Of a stretch of 64,000 nucleotides of DNA, positions 8,980 through 52,423 are shown piece after piece. A program made the position numbers and the translations under genes. The DNA comes from Candidatus Altimarinota bacterium (GTDB taxonomy: Bacteria > Patescibacteriota > Gracilibacteria > BD1-5 > UBA6164). The notes under the pieces were generated by a model. The model ran no database searches. It was not told the DNA's origin and saw nothing but the letters and a program-made list of their open reading frames with translations. Position 1 is the first letter of the stretch. Each line of letters opens with the position of its first letter. Location of the stretch: NCBI GenBank assembly GCA_025210615.1, contig JAOARJ010000002.1:310001-374000 (forward strand). The letters run 5' to 3'.

Positions 8980-10529
8980 ATGTTAAACAACAAATTACAA
9001 AATGATTTTATATCAGATTTTCATAATTTAACTCAGCAAAACGCTGAAAAAATATTTGAAAAAATTAAATTTGGAGATGATGATTTTTTTGATAATGAAA
9101 CTAAAAATAGTTTTATTTTATGGCTTAATTCGCATTTGGATGAGATTAAAAATAATTGAGAATATTCTCTGAAAAATGATTGATTTATAATAACTCCTGA
9201 TTTTTGAAAAAAATATTGAGGAGATTTAAATTCTTGAATTTGGGAAAACAATTTTCCATATTATAATGTCCCTAAAAGAAAATTATTACCCTATATTGTA
9301 GAATATGATGAAAATGGTGATATTATTGACCTGAAATGAAGCTTTTACCTTCTACTCCTGAAACTCAAAAAAATATAAAATATAATTTACTTTCAAGTGA
9401 TTCAAGAAAAATAGCTAGTAATATTTACGATGAGCAAGTTGATTATTTTAAAAAAGTAGCAGAAAAATATAAAAACGAAGATAATTTTTTGGATAAGATT
9501 TGAAAAGAATTTGAAAAAATAACTGATTTAGATAGGATAAAAAATTATGGAGAATGTTTAGTTGATACGATTTTTCAAAATAATAAAAACTCTTGTTTTA
9601 ACGCTTATTTAGAAGATAAAAAAATAAAATGATACAAAAAACGGGTTACTGAAAGCGATGATAGAGTAAGTGATATTTGTCGTCATAATGCGAGTCAAGG
9701 ATTTATTCCATTTGAAGATAATTTCATTAGTTGACATAATGCACCTCCTTGACATTACTGATGCAGATGCCATTTGGAGTTTAAAACTGAAGAAAATCTT
9801 GACTTTAATATAAAAAATTATATACTTAAAAGTAAGCAGATTGCTGATTTAATGGAAGAAGAGAGAATTCAAAAAGAGCAAGAAAAGCGTGAAAAAGAAG
9901 CAAAGAAGGAGAGGAAGAAGAAAGAAAGAGAAGAAAAAAATATCAAAAATCATGATATAACAGAATTATTTGAAGAAAAATTAAAAGAAGCGGACAATGA
10001 GACAAATATTTTTAATTATGTTCCAAATAATAAAACTAATTGAAAATTTGACGTAAAAAATAATGAAAATTTTAAAAAATGTGTAGATGAAGATTGATTT
10101 GTTAATTTATATTGAGAAAAAGTAAGGTTAGATGAAGTATGAAACTTTTTTGTTTGATATAACTGAGATAAAAATTGAATAAATATACATTTCATTAATC
10201 TTTGATGAGAAATGTATGAACGCGTAAAAAAATGAACAAAAGATTTAACGGATGAGTTTAGAGATAGGAGATTTTACAAAGCTTGAGCAGTTTATTGTCA
10301 ATTAAAACCCAATTTAAAAACAAAAACGGAAAATAAAAATGTTTTTAAGGAATTAATGAAACAAGCTAAAAATGAAAACATTAATATTGACGATATTTGA
10401 AAAGACTATTTTAACCAACCTAGTAAAACAGAAAAAGAATTTAAAGAAGAAATGAAAAAAGATTTAAATAAAGAAGCAATAAAATTTTTTAATCCCAAAG
10501 TTTATGAAAAAATTAATCCCCCAAAATAA
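8980..10529 (+). pseudogene. MuF-type phage head morphogenesis protein, frameshifted
   Basis: Frame 1 runs 8980-9378 (132 aa). Frame 2 continues from about 9334 to TAA at 10529 (397 aa from ATG 9336). Joining them at GACCTGAAATG (one base short of GAC CCT GAA ATG) restores one protein of about 516 aa. The joined protein has the MuF/SPP1 gp7 core: DDRVSDICRHNASQGFIPF, then GHNAPPGHYGCRCH, with the conserved Cys and His. A Lys/Glu-rich helix and a distinct C-terminal domain (from about 10035; GGEMYERVKKG, FYKAGAVYCQLKPN) follow, as in MuF proteins that carry toxin or effector tails. Glycines are often TGA. Confidence 0.7.
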
Positions 10530-25157: not shown

Positions 25158-25511
25158 ATGAGTAAAAAAAGGAAAATGGCTTATGCTATTATAGCAATTG
25201 TTATTCTGGTCGCATTCGCTATCAGCACTCTGCCCGAAAAAAAAGCAAAGGCTAAAGTCCAGAACGCTACTGGCAACATGACGGCTAGCAACGGCACTTG
25301 GGAGTTCCCATCTAATGGGACTCCGACACCCAAAAAACCGGTCAGAACCATTGTAGTAGAAGATGGGGATATTCTCTCCCGTCTTCTCAGCTACGCCGAA
25401 ATCAATGCCGGCGTAAAAGGCCTTGAACCGCCCTATATCATTAAGAAAGGCGGCAAGTTGCTCCAGTGGAAAGATAAAGGCTGGGAATATATTCCCCCGC
25501 CTGAAAAATAA
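25158..25511 (+). CDS. GC-rich membrane-anchored small protein, likely acquired
   Basis: 117 aa. The start is set by AAGGAGG four bases upstream. An N-terminal membrane anchor (KMAYAIIAIVILVAFAIS, residues 5-22) precedes a Pro/Gly/Thr-rich region and a short domain (EDGDILSRLLSYAEINAG; YIIKKGGKLLQWKDKGWEYI). Codons are strikingly GC-rich (GGC, CCG, GCC) in a genome that otherwise ends codons in A/T, and no glycine is TGA. This looks like recent transfer from a standard-code, higher-GC organism. No function recognised. Confidence 0.7.
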   Translation: MSKKRKMAYAIIAIVILVAFAISTLPEKKAKAKVQNATGNMTASNGTWEFPSNGTPTPKKPVRTIVVEDGDILSRLLSYAEINAGVKGLEPPYIIKKGGKLLQWKDKGWEYIPPPEK

Positions 25512-25540: not shown

Positions 25541-25578
25541 CAAAAAGCCCCCAGTCTTACGATTGGTGGCTTTTAATT
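25541..25578 (+). terminator. Terminator of the 25158 gene
   Basis: AAAAGCC and GGCTTTT arms with a 15-nt loop, followed by AATTTT. Confidence 0.6.
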
Positions 25579-25587
25579 TTCCTCAAA

Positions 25588-26637
25588 TTATTTTATCACT
25601 TCCCATTCATCAATATTATATTCTTCCCTATTATCAAGCTTGATAATATTATTTTCAAAACTAATAAGTACTCAAAAAACTTCTCTATTATCATAAATAT
25701 TTTTTAATTTTACTTCTTTATTAATATTATTTTTAAGTAGTTCTACCTGACGAGAAATCATATAAATAATCTTGTCAGTATATTTTTGTCAAGCAATCGC
25801 GTTATCTCAAAAATAATCTTTTGTTCATTCTATAATTTTTATAAAATCTTCTTCATTATGAGCTTTAACAAGTGTAGAAAAATCATGTCATACTTCCCTA
25901 TAAATTTTATGAACATTTAAAACTTCATCATTATACATTTGAATATCTCAGTATAATTTCGGATTCTGATGCATATATCTCGCAACAGAACTCAGCATAA
26001 TTTTATAAACTGGCGATACAAACTCCAAAGAATTTTCAATATCAACTCATAATCTCTTTATCGTTTCAGCGAAAACAAACATATTTAAATGCGTAAGTCC
26101 TTGTACCACTGCCATCATTTTATCATGTTCAACTGGCATTGTTTCCATAACTTTTGCTCAAGCATTTTTCAAAAAATTAAATAAAAACTGATATCTTTTA
26201 TCTTGTTTATCTTCTTCATTTAAAGGAGTTAAAACAATAATTTGTCCAGCAATAGAACTCACAAAAGGTCAAAACATCGGATGAGTTGGCACAATTAAAC
26301 AACTTTTATCACAATATTTTTCCATAGTAATACTTGGAAATTTTTTAATACTTGTAACATCCAAAACCATTGCTCAAGGCTTTATATGAGGAGCAACTTC
26401 TTTTATTATCCACTCTGTCGCACTTATAGGCACACTAAAAATAACTACGTCAGCGTCCTTTACCGAAGCGATATTATCAAGAGAATATTTACAATTTAAA
26501 TCTTTTGAAATTTGTTTTAAATTTTCTTCTTCTCTTCAAGTAAGAACTATTTCTATATTCTTAAAATTTTGTTTTGTTATAAAGTTTGCAAGCCATTTTC
26601 AAAATCATCTACTGGCTCAAATGATAACTATTTTCAT
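25588..26637 (-). CDS. Prephenate/arogenate dehydrogenase-like (TyrA family) protein
   Basis: 349 aa. N-terminal Rossmann fold with the dinucleotide motif IIGASRGFGKWLANF (residues 5-19), ADVVIFSVPI (about 62-71), then the TyrA signature THPMFGP near residue 120 and a helical dimer domain (QGLTHLNMFVFAETIKRLG). TyrA enzymes make the tyrosine precursor hydroxyphenylpyruvate. No other aromatic pathway gene is nearby, and CPR bacteria rarely make amino acids, so the substrate may differ. It is the last gene of a minus-strand operon with two U32 proteins (12 bp gap). Confidence 0.75.
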
Positions 26638-26648
26638 TATATTTTTTA

Positions 26649-28007
26649 TTATTTTTCTAAAGATTTCAAAAAATTTCTATACCATAATTTATCACCAAAT
26701 AAATATGCCATATCGTAGTGAGTTCTCTCAATATTATCATACAAACTTATCGCATCTTCAGGTACTTTTTGCTCCTCTACAACTTTCGTAATTAATTGAA
26801 TTTTCTCAGTATACTTTCTTCATCTTGTCGGAAATTTTACGGTATCAAGATTTTTAAATTTTGAGAAAAATAAATATGCGTGAAGGTTTAAGTTTGAATT
26901 TCTATTATATAATAAATCTTTATCTTTGGCTAAAACATTAGTTTTTCAAGCTAAATCTCTAAGAATTTCAGTAAATGCTTTCATTCAAAATTTTATATTA
27001 TTTTCTAGCTCTTCTTTCAAATCTGCATACTCTCAAAATTTATTATTAATTAATTTCACAGCTTTTAGGATTGTAATAATCTTTTTATTACGGCTTTCCA
27101 CAGGAGATTTTAAAGCGTCATAATACAAATATGGATTGTTTTTATTCTTTTCAGCTATTTTTTTAATTTTTTCTAAAATATCATTTTCTTCTTCTTGTGA
27201 AACTAATTCCAATTCGTCAAAATATTTTTCTAACATCTCAAAATCATCTAAATATTCGTCATTTAATAATTCTAATTTTTCAAAATTACTCAAATCTTTT
27301 CTTAAAATAATCTCTTTAAAAGCTGGATTATATCTCTTTTTGATAATTAAATCATTTACAACAACAGTACAAATATCTCTTGCTCAATACTTATGTTCCG
27401 CAAAACAAAGCCCATTGTTATACCTACAAAAATCTCATTCACCGAACACCTCAAATTTCATTTCAGGAAATTCTAATAGAATTTTTTCAATCTCACTCAA
27501 AGCAATTTCTCTACTCAAAATTACTTTATTTATGCAATAATTCTCTATCAAAAATTTTATAGCTTCACAATTATAAACCGCCATAATCGTAGAAATATTC
27601 ATTTTTCATTCGTATCAAACTTCTTTTAGGTATTCCAAAATTCAGATATTTCAACAAATAATTCAATCAACATTAGCCTCTTTAAATTCACCCAACATTC
27701 TTTCTATTAAAGGAAAAGTTTCGTCGGTATAATACCACGCATTTAGGTTTATAAAAACTTCGATATCACTCGAGTGAGCCTCTTCAACGATAATTTTCAA
27801 AGTTTCTAAATCAGTTATTTGTTCATGCTCTGAAAATCTACCATTTGGCGACACTTCAAACCCGAATTTATCCGACCAGTAAGGCGGATTATACCCCGTA
27901 AAAAATTCTGTCGCTCATCAATCTATAAGTTCGCGAACATATTTTCTAGCATCTTTGGCATTTTTTCATTTTGAATTAAAACCTAATCAAACAATTTTTT
28001 TGAACAT
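26649..28007 (-). CDS. Peptidase U32 family protein 1
   Basis: 452 aa. TIM-barrel start (ARKYVRELIDGGATEFFTGYNPP), then VFINLNAWYY, ANVDGIICGNIGILEYLK and the cysteine cluster GDFCRYNNGLCFAEHKYGARDIC (about residues 192-214). U32 relatives (UbiU/UbiV, RlhA, TrhP) bind an Fe-S cluster and hydroxylate RNA or quinones; few are true peptidases. The last 200 residues are a helical extension of unknown role. It is followed by a TyrA-like gene and preceded by a second U32 gene, so the two may form a UbiU-UbiV-like pair. Confidence 0.65.
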
Positions 28008-28042
28008 AATTTATTTTTTATATTAATAATTTTTTATTTTAA

Positions 28043-29113
28043 TTATACTGTAACAAAAGGAGCGAAAACTAATCTATTTTTTTGATGCCTATCAAAACTT
28101 TCTGGCAGGTAATCAAGATTTAATTCACTTCTAAATCAAGCATTTCATCTTTGAATCAATTTATATTGCGTAGTCTTAATTTTATAAAAAACATCATATC
28201 TAAAACAAGTTCTCGGACATATTTCGTCGCTTGCATAATTTCATCTAACAGGATTCTCAATCGCGCTAGTATCACACAATCTCCCTGTCATAACCAAAGC
28301 CCAAGGATAATAAACATCAAGTCATAATTCTCAATATCTCGAATTATCATAAAGAGTTTCTCTATTTTGCATATAATCTAATGCGATTCTTTCTATATTA
28401 TTTTTCTTTAAAAAACTTTGCATAATCGGCAGTGTCGCCTCACTTGATTGATAAAACTTTCTTTGTCACTCTCTCACTTTTTCTTTTTCTATTTCTATTT
28501 CTTGAGAAGTTTTATTTTTTATAAGTTCACCAGCAGGATGCGCGTCAAGTCAATAAGTATCAACAAGAGGTGTCTTTAGTAACTTATGAGTAAGACGACC
28601 ATATACAGGTTTTAAACGCGTAAATTTTTTCTTAAGTAAATTTAAAACTCATAAATCATTTACAACGACTTCAATAGGATTTTTTATTTTTAGATTATTT
28701 AAAAATTCCAAACTTTCCTCTAAATGAGAAAGCATATTATCTCCTACATATGGTGTAACAAAGGTAAAAGTTCTTACCTTATGTGGTGGATATAATTCGT
28801 TAAACTGCTTGAATAATTTTGTTGCTTGTTCTAGTTCTGCTTTATGCGCCATCAAAAATTCACAATTATCACTTCAATAATAAATTCACGAAATTTTCTT
28901 AAAAACTTCATTTCAATATCTCTTTTTTAGTTCACGAATAGCCATAAAATTCACTTCATATTGCGGAGAAATGTCATCTTTTATTTCACCAGAAAAATTT
29001 TTCATAAAAAAAGAGGCTATTTCCCTATCTGTTTTTCAAGTTGATAATAAAAATCACTTGTTTAATAATTTAAAATACTCTAAATTTGTTCAAATATGCA
29101 AAAATAATTCCAT
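28043..29113 (-). CDS. Peptidase U32-like protein 2
   Basis: 356 aa. Resembles UbiV-type U32 proteins: VNFMAIRELKKRYGNEVF, VVNDLGVLNLLKKKF, and near the C-terminus MTGRLCDTSAIENPVRGN with ICPRTCF, giving at least three clustered cysteines for an Fe-S site. It is 36 bp upstream of U32 protein 1. Family assignment rests on overall pattern and partner gene, so moderate. Confidence 0.55.
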
Positions 29114-34737: not shown

Positions 34738-34768
34738 AAAAAGCTAGAAATTAATCTAGCTTTTATTT
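34737..34768. terminator. Bidirectional terminator
   Basis: AAAGCTAGA and TCTAGCTTT arms with A- and T-rich flanks; it also overlaps the stop of the convergent gene. Confidence 0.7.
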
Positions 34769-35779
34769 AATCCAAATTCTTCAATTATATCATCATTCTA
34801 AATCTGGATCTTCATCACAATGTCTTATTAAATAAGGAGAACTTGCATTAAGATTTGCCCAACCATACACACTTCATGAAATAGAATAATATCTATGATA
34901 ATCAGTATGGTAAGGTAAACAATTATTAAGTGTTGTTGACCTATTTGACGAGAAACTTTCATTATTAGCACATTCTATTGTTCCAGAATAACTTCATCAG
35001 ATAATTAAATAACTAGAAAAATTTGATATATTTCTATGATAAAAAGTAAACCGATTTCAATTTAATTTTTTACAAGTAAATTTTAAAATACTAGAATTAT
35101 TAAGTCATAATTTTTTTATTCATACCATATAATTTGAAAACAATGAAGGAGTTCATATTTCAGTATTATATAAATCTGGTTGTAAAATATTTTGTGTTAT
35201 ATTTAAAGCTAAAGTCCAGCCTCATCAACTCATATCACAATAAACTCTAAATTTATCTGTTGTATTTCATCAATTAGGATCTATCCAATAATCTCAATTT
35301 CCTATACTTCATCAATTATCTAGAATATGTTTACATGATTCTCATGGATTATCAATAGTTCATAGTTTAGCCAATTTACAAACTTTTCAATCTACAACAT
35401 ATCAATCAGCGCAAGTTTGAACAGTACATTCTAAGTAATCATCAACTCAATTCCACGTTTTTGTAGCTAAGGTCGCATTATTTTTCTCAGGAGTACAATC
35501 TTGTACACTATTTATACAAGCAGAAGTTATTTTATCCCAGTGTTTATTAACATCACTACATTGTCATAAACAATTTCAATTATTATCGCACAAATTTCAA
35601 GTTACATATAATTTTCAATTTAATTTTATATTATCTCAACTAACATCTATTTTATCAGTTAAACTAGAAATATTTGTCCAGGTTAAATTATCTAAAACTT
35701 CTCAGGAGTTTTTATTTATTCAGTTTAATGCAGAACTTAATCAAAAAATTCACACCAAAAAAACTGATATTCAAAACAA
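34763..35779 (-). CDS. Secreted fibrinogen-like domain protein, paralog 2
   Basis: 338 aa from TTG at 35779. Signal peptide (FGISVFLVGIFGLSSA), the shared N-terminal module (NSGEVLDNLTW ... SLTDKIDV ... IKLNGKLYVTG), a Cys-rich spacer (CSDVNKHWDKITSACINS; CTVQTCADGYVVDGKVC) and a fibrinogen-like C-domain (DYWIDPNGGNTTDKFRVYCD, then MSGGGWTLAL). An AAGGAGG site lies upstream, but the GTG it best positions is in another frame that stops after 25 codons. The start is therefore uncertain and the signal peptide may be frameshifted. Confidence 0.7.
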
Positions 35780-48097: not shown

Positions 48098-50284
48098 TTA
48101 TTTTTTATCAAATCTAAATAATCAATTTTCTATAACTATTTCTCACGACAAAGCCTTTTTACATCTATCTATCATAATTTCACTAGGCTTATCTTCTCAC
48201 GAATTTTTTTCAAATTCTACTATAGCGTTTTCATAATTTCAATTATAATATAATTTTAATCACGCTTCATAATTCTGCAAGAAATACATATTTACTGGAG
48301 CATTTTTTTCAGCAAGTAATTCATAAATTTTTATTCATTTTTCTTTCCCTTTTACCGCTATAAAATCAAGTTCTCTAAATATAAAATCATCTTTTACAAC
48401 TTCAAAAACGCTCTCAGAAATACAGATATAAGTTCAATAATATTTATTGATTGCTTCTAGTCTGGAAGCCAAATTTACTCAATCTCAAATAACAGTATAA
48501 TCAAACCTATCTTCTCATCATAAATTTCAATACATTACGCTAGCTGAATTTATTCAGATTCTTGCTTTTATTTCTGGTAAATTTTCTTCTTTCCATTTTT
48601 TATTTAATTTTTTTAATGCTTTTTGTTGCTGAATTGCTGTTAAACAAGCTAAATTAATATGTTTTTCTAATTTTAATGGAGCACCAAAAAATCACATCAC
48701 AGCATCTCAAATAAATTTATCAAGTGTTCATTTATTTTTTGTTAAAATTCTTGTCATTTCTCACAAATATTCATTTAGTAATTTAAATAAATCTTCAGCG
48801 TTTAGTTTTTCAGAAATACTTGTAAATCATTCTATATCTGAGAAAAATATTGTTAGTTTTCCCTTTTGTCATCATAAACTTAGACCATCAGGATTTTTTG
48901 ATAATTCATCTACTACAACTGGTGATAAATAGTGAGAAAAAGCTGTTTTTAAAAATCTTTTATTTTTTTCTTCTATAAAATAATTATAAAGATGATAAAT
49001 AATAAATGTTATCACTAAGCCAGAAACTACTAGAAAACAAGGATAAATTATTCCTGTAAAAAAGAATTTTGCTCACAAAAATATTTGTCAGATTAATAAT
49101 CAAATTAGTAAAATTGATGAAAATAATAAGTTTAATAAAGCGCTACGAGAAAATTTTGAAGTAACCTTTGTTATAAATAAACATAAAATAGCAAATATAA
49201 AAATACTGATAAATAATACTGAATATTGCATATTTTCGTCTAATGGAAGCAAAAAGTTTCAATACAAAAATGTTCTAACTAAATTTGCATGGACTGCTAC
49301 TCACGCCATTTTTTTATAAAAACTTACTGGAGTATGATGAGAATCATGAAAAAGTGTACCTACTTCTCAAATTAAAACAATTTTTCAGGCTAAATTTATC
49401 TCTTGTTTTTTATTTAAAATATCAACTAAACTATAGCTTTCTATTCAAAATAAACTATCACTATCGTCTACATTTTTATCTTTATAAAAGTTAAGATAAA
49501 TATTTTCTTCTTCTTGTTTTTCTTTTAGTTTTTGTTCAAAAGCTAGTAATAATTCTTTATCAAATTTTTCTTGATTAGCGCTTATTTCATCAAATTTTAA
49601 CTGCTTATTTAAATAAGTTTTTGCTAAATTTATTTTTGTAAAAATATCACTTGTTTTTATAAATTTTTTAAAAATTTCTACTGCGAAAATATCTATTCAA
49701 TTTAAATTTTCTGGATTTTGTTTAAACATTTTATTACAATCTGTAGCTGGCTTATAATTCGGATAAAAAACTTGAGCTTTTCTTATCCTAATACTCTCAT
49801 CAACCTCTTTTCATCAAATATTAAAATTCGCTGCTCAATGAGTTGCTATATTATATTTACAAACAGGTAGTACATCAGATTCTCATCTAGAAGCCAAAAC
49901 TACATAGTCACTATATTTTTTTAGCGTATTATATAATTTTAATTCATCTAATAATGAGCTTCTATTAGCTAGAATCACATCTATTCAAATAGCACTTACT
50001 CAATAATTTTCAACTAAATTTTCTATAATTTCAGCATATAATTTTTTTGGAAAAGTAAGATTATTTATATCACTTTTTTGAAGCTCATCTAAAGTTTTAT
50101 CATCTATTTTTAGTATAGCTAATTTATCTTTTGCAAGCTCATAATTATTATTATTGTTATATAAAAAATTATCATTAAAATCTGTTCAAGCTTGAGGAAA
50201 AAATCTATTAAAGCCAATAGTTAGGGCAAAAATAAAGATTATAATAAAAAAACGAGAAAATATACTCTTGTAAATTGACTTCAT
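48098..50284 (-). CDS. CHASE2-domain class III adenylate cyclase
   Basis: 728 aa. N-terminal helix (10-30), extracytoplasmic CHASE2 sensor (about 35-340; ILKIDDKTLDELQ, IGIDVILANRSS), three membrane helices (about 355-445), then a cyclase domain (about 475-640). It has metal Asp in FFSDIEGFTSISE, DKFIGDAVMGFFG, and purine-specifying and transition-state residues in DYTVIGDGVNLASRLEA. It should turn an outside signal into cAMP. It is divergent (51 bp) from a FecR-domain protein, and CHASE2 cyclases often neighbour FecR genes. TGA supplies most domain glycines. Confidence 0.93.
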
Positions 50285-50335
50285 AGTTTAAATATGATAG
50301 AATATTCTAAATTTATAACCATATATTATACACTT

Positions 50336-52423
50336 ATGAGAAAAACAAAAATTTTTTTTAGCCTTATTTCTATTTTTGCTATTTTATTGAGCAGTTTTCA
50401 AAGTGCTTTCGCCGCTGAAAATACTGATTCTAATGAGATAAACGCTTATTTAGATAAAATAAAATGAACAGTTCTTATTTCTAATAAAATTTATAGAGCT
50501 AGAAATAATAAATCAGCTGTAAAACTAAAAACTTGAGATATTTTATGGTCTTTGAAAACAAGTTCTGCTAATGTAGTATTTGAAGATGGAAGTATTTTTA
50601 GATTATCTGGGAATACAAAATTTGTTATTCAAGATTTAAGTAAAGATGAGGCAAATTTAGAAGTAAAAAATTGAAGTGTATGGGCTAGAATCCTTAAACC
50701 AATCGGAAGTTGAACAACTTATAATGTAGAAACAAAATCAGTTAGTGCCTCTGTTAGAGGGACTTCGGTTTCCTTTAAACATGATGAAGAGTCTGGTTTA
50801 GTTTGAATAAAAGTTATTGATTCAATTAATGATGATGAAGCAATTTTGCTAAAAACAAAAAAAGATGATAAAGAAATAAAAATTCCAAAAGAAACTTCTG
50901 TTGTTATTGATGAAAATAAAGATTTCACTCAAACTAAAAAACTAAATATTAAAAAGGAATTAGAAGAAAATCCTGAAATTAAAGAAAATACAAAAAAAGA
51001 TTTATTATATATGAATGAGCTAATAAGCTCTACGATAAAAGAAAAAGTTAATTCTAATAATAGTAATAATACTTCTGAAGAAAATGATGAAGAAGAAATT
51101 TTTACACCTAAAATAAATATAGATTTAAAAAAAGTTTCTGGTGAAATTTCTCAAAGTATACCTGAAGATGAAGAAGAAGCTGAAGCTCTTTTTGATAATA
51201 AAGAAATCGCTGATGCTTTTGTTAAAGAGCAAAAAAAAATTGAAAATCTTGTAGATAATATGGAGGAACAAATCTTATCTGACACTTTGGAGGGATTAAA
51301 TAAAGTAAATAATCTTTTAGTAAAAGATGAGGTTATTTCTGAAATGAGAGAACTTTATAGTGACAATGAAGAAACTTCTTCACAAGAAAAATTAGATAAA
51401 ATGATTAATCTTGTAGTAGAAAACGATTTATCTGACGAAAAAGTCAAAGATATAAAAGAAAATGATTCATTAAATATGGGTGAAGTCTTTGAAACTTATA
51501 AGGATATTGCTAGTGAAAATTGAAATGATTATTTGATTGCTCAATTTGATGATACTATGGATATGTATGGCGAGTTAATCAAGATGGAACAAGAGAGAAT
51601 CACAGAATATGGACAACAAATTGAAAACAACCTAAAAGAGCAAATCAAAAATACAATGGAATATAACGATGAATATGTAAATTATTTAAATCAAGATACA
51701 AAAGAAAAAGAAGATAAAATTATAGAATTAAAAAATAAATTAAAAATCTTAGAAAAAAAATTAGCTATAGCAAAATATGAGTTAGCTAAAGCCAATGCTG
51801 AAAAGAAATGAGATGATGAATATGATGAAGCTTTATATGAATTGGAATATAGAGTTGAAGAATTAGAAGATGAAATAAAATATACTAAAGAAGATATAGA
51901 AGACTTACAAGAAAATATCAAAGATAATAAAAAAGATATATTAGAAGAACAAAAAGAAGAACTTGAAGATATTGAAGAACTAAAGAAAGATTATGAAGAA
52001 GAAGTTAAAGAGTTAAAAGAAGATGCAGAAGACAGCATAAAAGATGTTAAAATAGATATGAAGGAAGATATGGAAGATTTGAAAGAGGATATGCAAGAAG
52101 AAATAGAAGATAAAAAAGAAGAAGAAAAAGAAGCTGAAGAAACTAGACTTGAAGCTGAAAAAGAAGCTAAAGAAGCTAGACTTGAGGCTGAGAAAGAAGC
52201 TGAAGAAAAAATAGAAGAAGCTTTAGAAATTTGAAGGCTTAATATAAAAAATGATGAAGATGAAAGTAGTACTACTTTACCTGAAATTGATTGAGTAAAA
52301 GTTGAATGAAATAAACAAGAAACTAAAAAATCATCAATAAAAGATAGATATAAAGAAGCTAGAAAAAGAATAAAGGAAGCGAAAAAAAGAATTGAAGAAG
52401 CTAGAAAAAAGTATGAAAAATAA
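50336..52423 (+). CDS. Secreted FecR-domain protein with long acidic coiled coil
   Basis: 695 aa. Signal peptide (1-26), FecR domain (about 40-165; TGDILWSLKTSSANVVFEDG, FRLSGNTKFVI, VETKSVSASVRGTSVSF). About 500 residues of charged helix follow, with near-perfect heptads between 460 and 660 (YRVEELEDEIKYTKEDIEDL; EEELEDIEEL-like; repeated RLEAEKEAKEA), ending in a basic KEARKRIKEAKKRIEEARKK tail. A periplasmic or surface rod that could signal to the divergent CHASE2 cyclase. The C-terminal repeats are low complexity. Confidence 0.85.

Follow-up and report, generated by a model that had tools for sequence, protein, structure and literature searches.

Organization of the locus

The window (the whole stretch analysed, 64,000 nucleotides) belongs to a 1.25-Mb genome of 16 contigs that is 96% complete, that of a tiny, probably host-dependent bacterium. 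Three minus-strand ORFs fill positions 25588-29113 (Table 1). They are intact only when TGA is read as glycine (code 25); the standard-code reading breaks all three genes and was rejected. P0001, P0002 and P0003 contain 14, 15 and 14 in-frame TGA codons, respectively, together with 2 to 8 GGN codons per gene.

Table 1. Genes of the three-gene cluster, with positions in the window
Gene	Product	Length	Position	Strand	Basis
P0001	Prephenate dehydrogenase (TyrA)	349 aa	25588..26637	-	PDH_N and PDH_C; catalytic residues aligned with E. coli TyrA
P0002	Divergent UbiU-like peptidase U32 protein	452 aa	26649..28007	-	PF01136; hhalign with E. coli UbiU
P0003	Lineage-restricted protein with four invariant Cys, possibly UbiV-like	356 aa	28043..29113	-	Conserved Cys; weak profile score

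The intergenic gaps are 11 and 35 bp. For the putative operon of the original prediction, the supporting features are close spacing and the shared strand; promoter-like sites (35 found vs 31.3 expected) and terminator-like sites (2 vs 1.4) occurred at chance level, and the gene arrangement was not conserved. Among loci L022-L182, which were compared over limited flanks, two or more of the families occurred together at only two loci, L041 and L069, both in this genome. A conserved TyrA-U32 operon was rejected, since no other genome showed the arrangement at the loci compared. The adjacency of the three genes appears to be recent and private to this genome, with or without selection behind it, and by itself it proves nothing.

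P0001 and the aromatic pathway

P0001 matched PDH_N (7.3e-26) and PDH_C (5.4e-17), both above the curated Pfam cut-offs, and its best PDB relative was 2pv7, a bifunctional T-protein. Residues H119, H183 and R220 aligned with H197, H257 and R294 of E. coli TyrA, and the same residues were found in 11/11 strong orthologs. We take H197 to be the catalytic histidine of the E. coli enzyme and R294 its prephenate-binding arginine. The position of E. coli R286 is occupied by Lys in P0001. In two weak homologs (L037 and L038) the aligned prephenate-binding Arg is missing. When compared with NCBIfam PRK08655.1-4, P0001 scored 332 bits over residues 1-337 (cut-off 498 bits). It is like TyrA of the PRK08655 group in both domains, the catalytic His and the substrate Arg, but lacks the C-terminal part of these models, the best match ending at 337 of 446.

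A search with P0001 as query and no family model, which may miss divergent TyrA, detected strong orthologs (E < 1e-70) in 12 of 60 genomes, including this one, and a match of any strength in 20. PheA directly adjoined TyrA in 6 of the 11 strong orthologs outside this genome (those of G006, G012, G013, G025, G027 and G034). Neither P0002 nor P0003 was present in any of the 11 neighbourhoods fetched for these orthologs.

The genome itself encodes a prephenate dehydratase (PheA/PDT; 232 bits, NCBIfam cut-off 219) adjoined by a class I/II aminotransferase on contig C15, and a stand-alone AroQ-type chorismate mutase (CM) on contig C12. Searches of this genome gave no match for chorismate synthase (control 14/14), DHQ synthase (control 11/14) or UbiA (PF01040; control 14/14), the last of which was matched in 5/60 genomes. 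Across the 60 genomes the search for the shikimate half covered chorismate synthase and DHQ synthase; chorismate synthase was found in 7 genomes, DHQ synthase in 6 and both in 5. AroQ-type CM above the cut-off was present in 37 genomes (two weaker ones were left out) and prephenate dehydratase in 35. G031 has a cluster of EPSP synthase, chorismate synthase, CM, PheA and a short TyrA but gave no match for DHQ synthase. The enzyme of the first shikimate step, DAHP synthase, adjoins PheA in G016 and CM in G054, two genomes without chorismate synthase or DHQ synthase; loss of the upper pathway may thus be less complete than supposed.

Because CM, PheA and the aminotransferase are present and no match was obtained for chorismate synthase, DHQ synthase or UbiA, P0001 is best read, judging from sequence, as an ordinary TyrA of a truncated, post-chorismate pathway. 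It differs from a typical TyrA in that it sits in a genome where chorismate synthase was not found. The original prediction had started from the usual lack of aromatic synthesis and quinones in CPR bacteria. As for a full aromatic pathway elsewhere in the genome, which by its account would make this an ordinary TyrA, the post-chorismate half is there, and neither of the two shikimate-half enzymes sought was found. Its suggestion that the dehydrogenase acts outside tyrosine synthesis is not supported, in view of the intact catalytic residues, the PheA genes beside 6/11 strong orthologs and the retained post-chorismate genes; a repurposed enzyme is not favoured.

P0002 is a divergent U32 protein

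P0002 matched PF01136 at 1.6e-20 (73.9 bits; cut-off 22.4), over model positions 4-112 of 233 only. A P0002-family profile of 23 sequences aligned with E. coli UbiU over residues 25-207 (hhalign 96.5%, E 8e-10). Scores against the equivalog models were low: 56 bits for the NCBIfam UbiU equivalog (cut-off 440) and 49 bits for the TrhP model NF011996, short of a full U32 plus U32_C match. The core E186-x7-C194-x6-C201 was invariant in 23/23 sequences and is spaced as E162/C170/C177 of TrhP, residues reported as essential for ho5U34 formation (PMC6599085). C118 and C213 were also invariant (23/23), giving the conserved pattern C194-X6-C201-X11-C213. P0002 thus keeps E-x7-C-x6-C at the TrhP spacing; however, it differs from TrhP and RlhA in that its U32 match is confined to the first half of the model and in having no clear counterpart of the fourth Cys ligand of the usual U32 motif, for which the invariant C118 is a candidate. 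No Pfam U32 match was obtained after residue 211, and a long stretch precedes the motif KFPTRGR (391-397), which by eye recalls the KIEGR stretch of UbiU. A structure model computed without an alignment was useless (pLDDT 43.7). P0002 had no match in viral contigs, and profiles of the P0002 and P0003 families searched against PDB sequences returned chance-level rows only.

The neighbours of P0002 orthologs, named through family models for YebC, RRF, L10 and RbfA, were rbfA in 13/28 loci, yebC in 10/28, frr in 6/28 and rplJ in 1/28, with at least one of the four in 17/28. RbfA scored 49.9 bits, just below the NCBIfam cut-off (51.15) and above the Pfam cut-off. For comparison, a translation-gene set wider than these four was represented in 0/47 PDT/CS/CM loci. 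The neighbours of P0002 in relatives point to translation. P0002 is UbiU-like in sequence, yet its genomic context in relatives is that of translation. A 66-residue neighbour present in 17/28 loci was bS21-like at E 0.065 only, and a candidate bL33-like protein was encoded in 7/28.

P0003 is a possible UbiV-like partner

Four cysteines of P0003 (C84, C280, C299 and C303) were invariant in 24/24 sequences. No Pfam family was matched at E 1, and the NCBIfam search returned a single chance-level row (E 0.26) and no UbiV score. The 23 relatives gave a best Pfam E of 0.023, and U32 was absent among all 24 members; P0003 had no match in plasmids. UbiV binds a [4Fe-4S] cluster via CXnCX12CX3C (PMC6747719), and the pattern of P0003, CXnCX18CX3C, is similar in order.

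A UbiV profile was built from E. coli UbiV and 11 plasmid relatives, in which the four Cys were invariant (12/12). In a weak local profile alignment, C84 of P0003 fell on C39 of UbiV and NDLGVL on the DLGV stretch. The score of this alignment, 26.5, exceeded 300/300 column shuffles (mean 15.5, sd 2.9, max 26.2) and that of the reversed profile (18.3); hhalign probability was only 4.4%, and 1.6% against E. coli UbiV alone. The predicted structure of P0003 was of moderate quality and barrel-like (pLDDT 71.6, pTM 0.77), with pLDDT < 50 at residues 275-329, which hold three of the four Cys. Foldseek returned nothing at E <= 0.001 for this model. The U32 entry 5d88 came first in the VIA list (Z 10.9); because unrelated barrels tie with it (a phosphodiesterase at 10.9, pyruvate kinases at 10.7), only "barrel-like" was taken from this list.

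In view of the 4.4% probability and the low pLDDT around three of the Cys, "UbiV-like" is a lead for P0003, not family membership: the protein has four invariant Cys in UbiV-like order but lies below every family threshold. The original prediction of a TyrA-like dehydrogenase with two U32 proteins forming a UbiU/UbiV-like pair is accordingly borne out for P0001 and for the UbiU-like P0002; P0003 showed no U32 match and enters only as a possible UbiV counterpart.

It is a serious possibility, though less likely than not, that P0003 is unrelated to UbiV and belongs to a separate Fe-S or zinc family, with P0002 alone as the hydroxylase. The lack of a credible Pfam, NCBIfam or PDB-sequence match and the low profile probability favour this, as do neighbours that differ from those of P0002. 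Near P0003 relatives, which comprised 26 loci from 25 genomes (two copies in G018), translation genes were sought and found in 0/26 loci; an uncharacterised 132-residue protein was present in 15/26 and a secreted-looking protein in 14/26. Against it stand the alignment of C84 and of the NDLG stretch with C39 and DLG of UbiV, a score that none of the 300 shuffles reached, if only by a small distance from the best of them, and co-occurrence with P0002. Glutaredoxin was encoded in 2/26 of these loci and ferredoxin in 1/26.

Distribution of P0002 and P0003

P0002 was found in 29/60 genomes, including fragments in G011, G032 and G054, and P0003 in 26/60. Both were present in 24 genomes, P0002 only in 5, P0003 only in 2 and neither in 29 (p=1.1e-9, phylogeny ignored). 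Within their own family (36 genomes), the corresponding numbers were 24, 4, 2 and 6 (p=0.0024, phylogeny ignored). The sole P0002 outside the family among the 60 genomes was a partial gene at a contig edge in G054. A profile search of 378 other genomes of the phylum detected neither P0002 (E 1e-20) nor P0003 (E 1e-5), and the 21 named loci with P0003 relatives were all assigned to Candidatus Gracilibacteria, Candidatus Altimarinus, Patescibacteria group bacterium or bacterium. In G017, which is a single contig, P0002 and P0003 lie 676 kb apart, so their pairing in the window is probably derived. Since they co-occur though unlinked elsewhere, at least these two proteins look functionally tied. 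The idea that the U32 pair is connected with TGA recoding was not retained, because in G041, whose hits contain many in-frame TGA, the only U32 is of the TrhP type.

Proposed role of the cluster

Known U32 RNA hydroxylases, TrhP and RlhA, are described as prephenate-dependent in a published study, which leaves them unproven as catalysts themselves (PMC6599085); the original prediction did not draw this connection between the U32 proteins and their TyrA-like neighbour. As reported in the same study, prephenate in the medium restored ho5U in E. coli lacking pheA and tyrA (PMC6599085), so scavenging of this metabolite is reasonable. We give about even chances to the proposal that the cluster joins two users of prephenate, a working TyrA and a U32 pair of RNA hydroxylases. 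P0001 would act as a prephenate dehydrogenase and, with the separate CM, PheA and probably the adjacent aminotransferase, would complete the synthesis of tyrosine and phenylalanine, starting from chorismate or prephenate. One or the other of these would apparently be scavenged, given that searches for two key shikimate enzymes gave no match. P0002 and P0003 would be a lineage-restricted pair of probable [4Fe-4S] proteins, presumably forming a complex, that most likely hydroxylates a base of ribosomal or transfer RNA without O2. Prephenate would be their required metabolite, as for RlhA and TrhP. TyrA and the U32 pair would then meet at prephenate, and their neighbourhood is not absurd.

The tRNA/rRNA modification put forward in the original prediction held up as the likeliest role of the U32 pair, because the genome gave no match for UbiA, chorismate synthase or DHQ synthase; the translation neighbours of P0002 agree with it. 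On present sequence evidence, the pair is most likely an RNA-hydroxylating system, of which P0002 is the better-supported half.

That an ordinary TyrA lies by chance beside two functionally unrelated proteins in a shuffled genome is rather unlikely, though not negligible. At the loci checked in other genomes, no two of the families occurred together. TyrA showed no association with U32 genes among the 60 genomes (both in 8, TyrA only in 4; p=0.27), and its association with CM within the family was negative (p=0.04). However, chance does not readily account for the co-occurrence of P0002 and P0003, uncorrected as both its p values are, in genomes where the two genes are unlinked, and known U32 RNA hydroxylation requires the very substrate of TyrA.

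A reading along the lines of the other option in the original prediction, an imported cyclohexadienyl compound, is very improbable; in it a rebuilt UbiU/UbiV would hydroxylate an aromatic or quinone-like compound taken up by the cell, and the substrate of the TyrA relative would be a cyclohexadienyl compound of similar kind, likewise imported. P0002 is UbiU-like and the Cys pattern of P0003 UbiV-like, but UbiA was unmatched in 55/60 genomes, this one included, the neighbours of P0002 are translation genes, and TyrA retains its catalytic His and prephenate-binding Arg and pairs with PheA in 6/11 strong orthologs.

Should the U32 pair indeed hydroxylate RNA, the O2-independent hydroxylases, a small class with chemistry yet to be settled, would gain a new branch. 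Host-dependent bacteria might in that case preserve part of aromatic metabolism for modifying RNA as well as for amino acids. TyrA alone is ordinary. No description of the trio or of the CM-U32 pattern given below was found among the top-ranked titles and abstract openings of the open-licence literature, which is no proof of absence. The published gracilibacterium genome paper presumably describes CP042461. Its main text does not contain chorismate, prephenate, aromatic, shikimate or U32 (PMC6851277).

Within the family, chorismate mutase accompanies U32 genes

This genome also carries a near-full TrhP gene (C4:233473-234774; NF011996 514 bits, cut-off 534; U32_C 8.9e-15). Counting TrhP (E < 1e-70) or P0002 as a U32 gene, CM and U32 agreed in 32 of the 36 family genomes: both were present in 26, CM only in 2, U32 only in 2 and neither in 6 (odds ratio 39, p=0.00036, uncorrected for phylogeny). 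At genus level, p was 0.03. CM and PDT showed no association in the family (odds ratio 0.83). Over all 60 genomes, the odds ratio was 8.7 for CM-U32 (p=0.0026) and 2.7 for CM-PDT (p=0.11). Outside the family (24 genomes), both were present in 8, CM only in 1, U32 only in 11 and neither in 4 (p=0.61).

All 12 genomes that had CM without detected PDT possessed a U32 gene. The same was true for 7/7 genomes with CM in which PDT, TyrA and chorismate synthase all went undetected (G017, G018, G022, G045, G048, G054 and G055). CM above the cut-off was missing from 13 of the 47 U32-bearing genomes, 2 of them in the family. CmoA was considered as another user of prephenate and rejected (no genome of the 60 above the cut-off and weak matches in 4). 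Three genomes of genus g14 (G013, G027 and G034) have TyrA and PheA, with neither CM nor U32 detected; TyrA and PheA without CM are unexplained by the prephenate scheme.

The broader lead is the joint retention of CM and U32 genes in a family where chorismate synthase went undetected in most genomes, which provides a testable genomic handle on prephenate supply and use. A wider reading, which we regard as speculative and distinctly unlikely in its entirety, is that in a Gracilibacteria family reading TGA as Gly a separate RNA hydroxylase of two proteins (P0002/P0003) has evolved, O2-independent and linked with the assembly of ribosomes, and that a stand-alone CM is retained, in most cases with no chorismate synthase detected, to make prephenate from scavenged chorismate for this pair and for TrhP. 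Our confidence in it was lowered slightly because DAHP synthase adjoins CM in G054.

The CM sequences were compared with the E. coli enzyme at individual positions; the CM ORF was not recovered in L214, L225 and L227. In the stand-alone CM, aligned active-site positions depart from the E. coli enzyme at E52 (W), S84 (A) and Q88 (E). All 29 distinct CMs recovered keep R11, R28, K39 and R51 of the E. coli enzyme, 26 have W in place of E52 and 23 have E in place of Q88. The CM of the G031 aro cluster has the same changes, so these alone do not mark loss of function.

Surroundings of prephenate pathway genes in related genomes

The genes for TyrA (prephenate dehydrogenase) and PheA (prephenate dehydratase) adjoined each other in G034 (locus L026), G027 (L027), and G013 (L031) of the comparison set. 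Type II chorismate mutase, chorismate synthase, and a U32 gene (candidate prephenate-dependent RNA hydroxylase) were all undetected in these genomes. DAHP synthase was present in G016 and G054; both genomes were searched for chorismate synthase and DHQ synthase, and neither was found.

Stand-alone chorismate mutase often lay close to a class II aminoacyl-tRNA synthetase and to an HtpX-like protease, the latter recognized by eye (L208, L209, L210, L212, L219, and L222); neither PheA nor TyrA was its neighbour at these loci. The synthetase was assigned to the glycyl type by eye, its domains being confirmed in L208 only.

A conserved 132-residue protein adjoined orthologs of P0003, the four-Cys, possibly UbiV-like protein, in 15 of 26 loci; it was not found in the window itself.

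Other genes in the window

The GC content of the small ORF was 46%, vs. 25% for the window. It contained no TGA codons (read as glycine in this genome) and nine GGN glycines, and a terminator-like hairpin lies downstream of it at 25551-25566. The ORF matched neither a Pfam family nor phage DNA. It looks as if it had been inserted recently from a donor with the standard code.

Coordinates of features in the window and at related loci
Feature	Location	Strand	Pfam, E-value	Remark
Small ORF	window 25158-25511	+		foreign-looking by composition and codon use
Protein with a fibrillar collagen C-terminal domain match	window 34763-35779	-	PF01410, 3.2e-12	
Ntox44 protein	window 9336-10529	+	PF15607, 1.2e-6	domain at C-terminal end
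CHASE2-adenylate/guanylate cyclase and FecR-domain proteins	window 48098-52423			divergent pair
Chorismate mutase locus L208	G017:C1:770000-780000			with class II aminoacyl-tRNA synthetase
DAHP synthase (G016)	L115:416-1477		PF00793, 9.8e-84	adjoins PheA
DAHP synthase (G054)	L213:5128-6207		PF00793, 2.1e-82	adjoins chorismate mutase
132-residue protein, example	L042:2724-3119	-		relatives at further P0003 loci

The product of the Ntox44 gene is possibly a polymorphic toxin. The gene of the collagen-domain protein contained 32 in-frame TGA codons.
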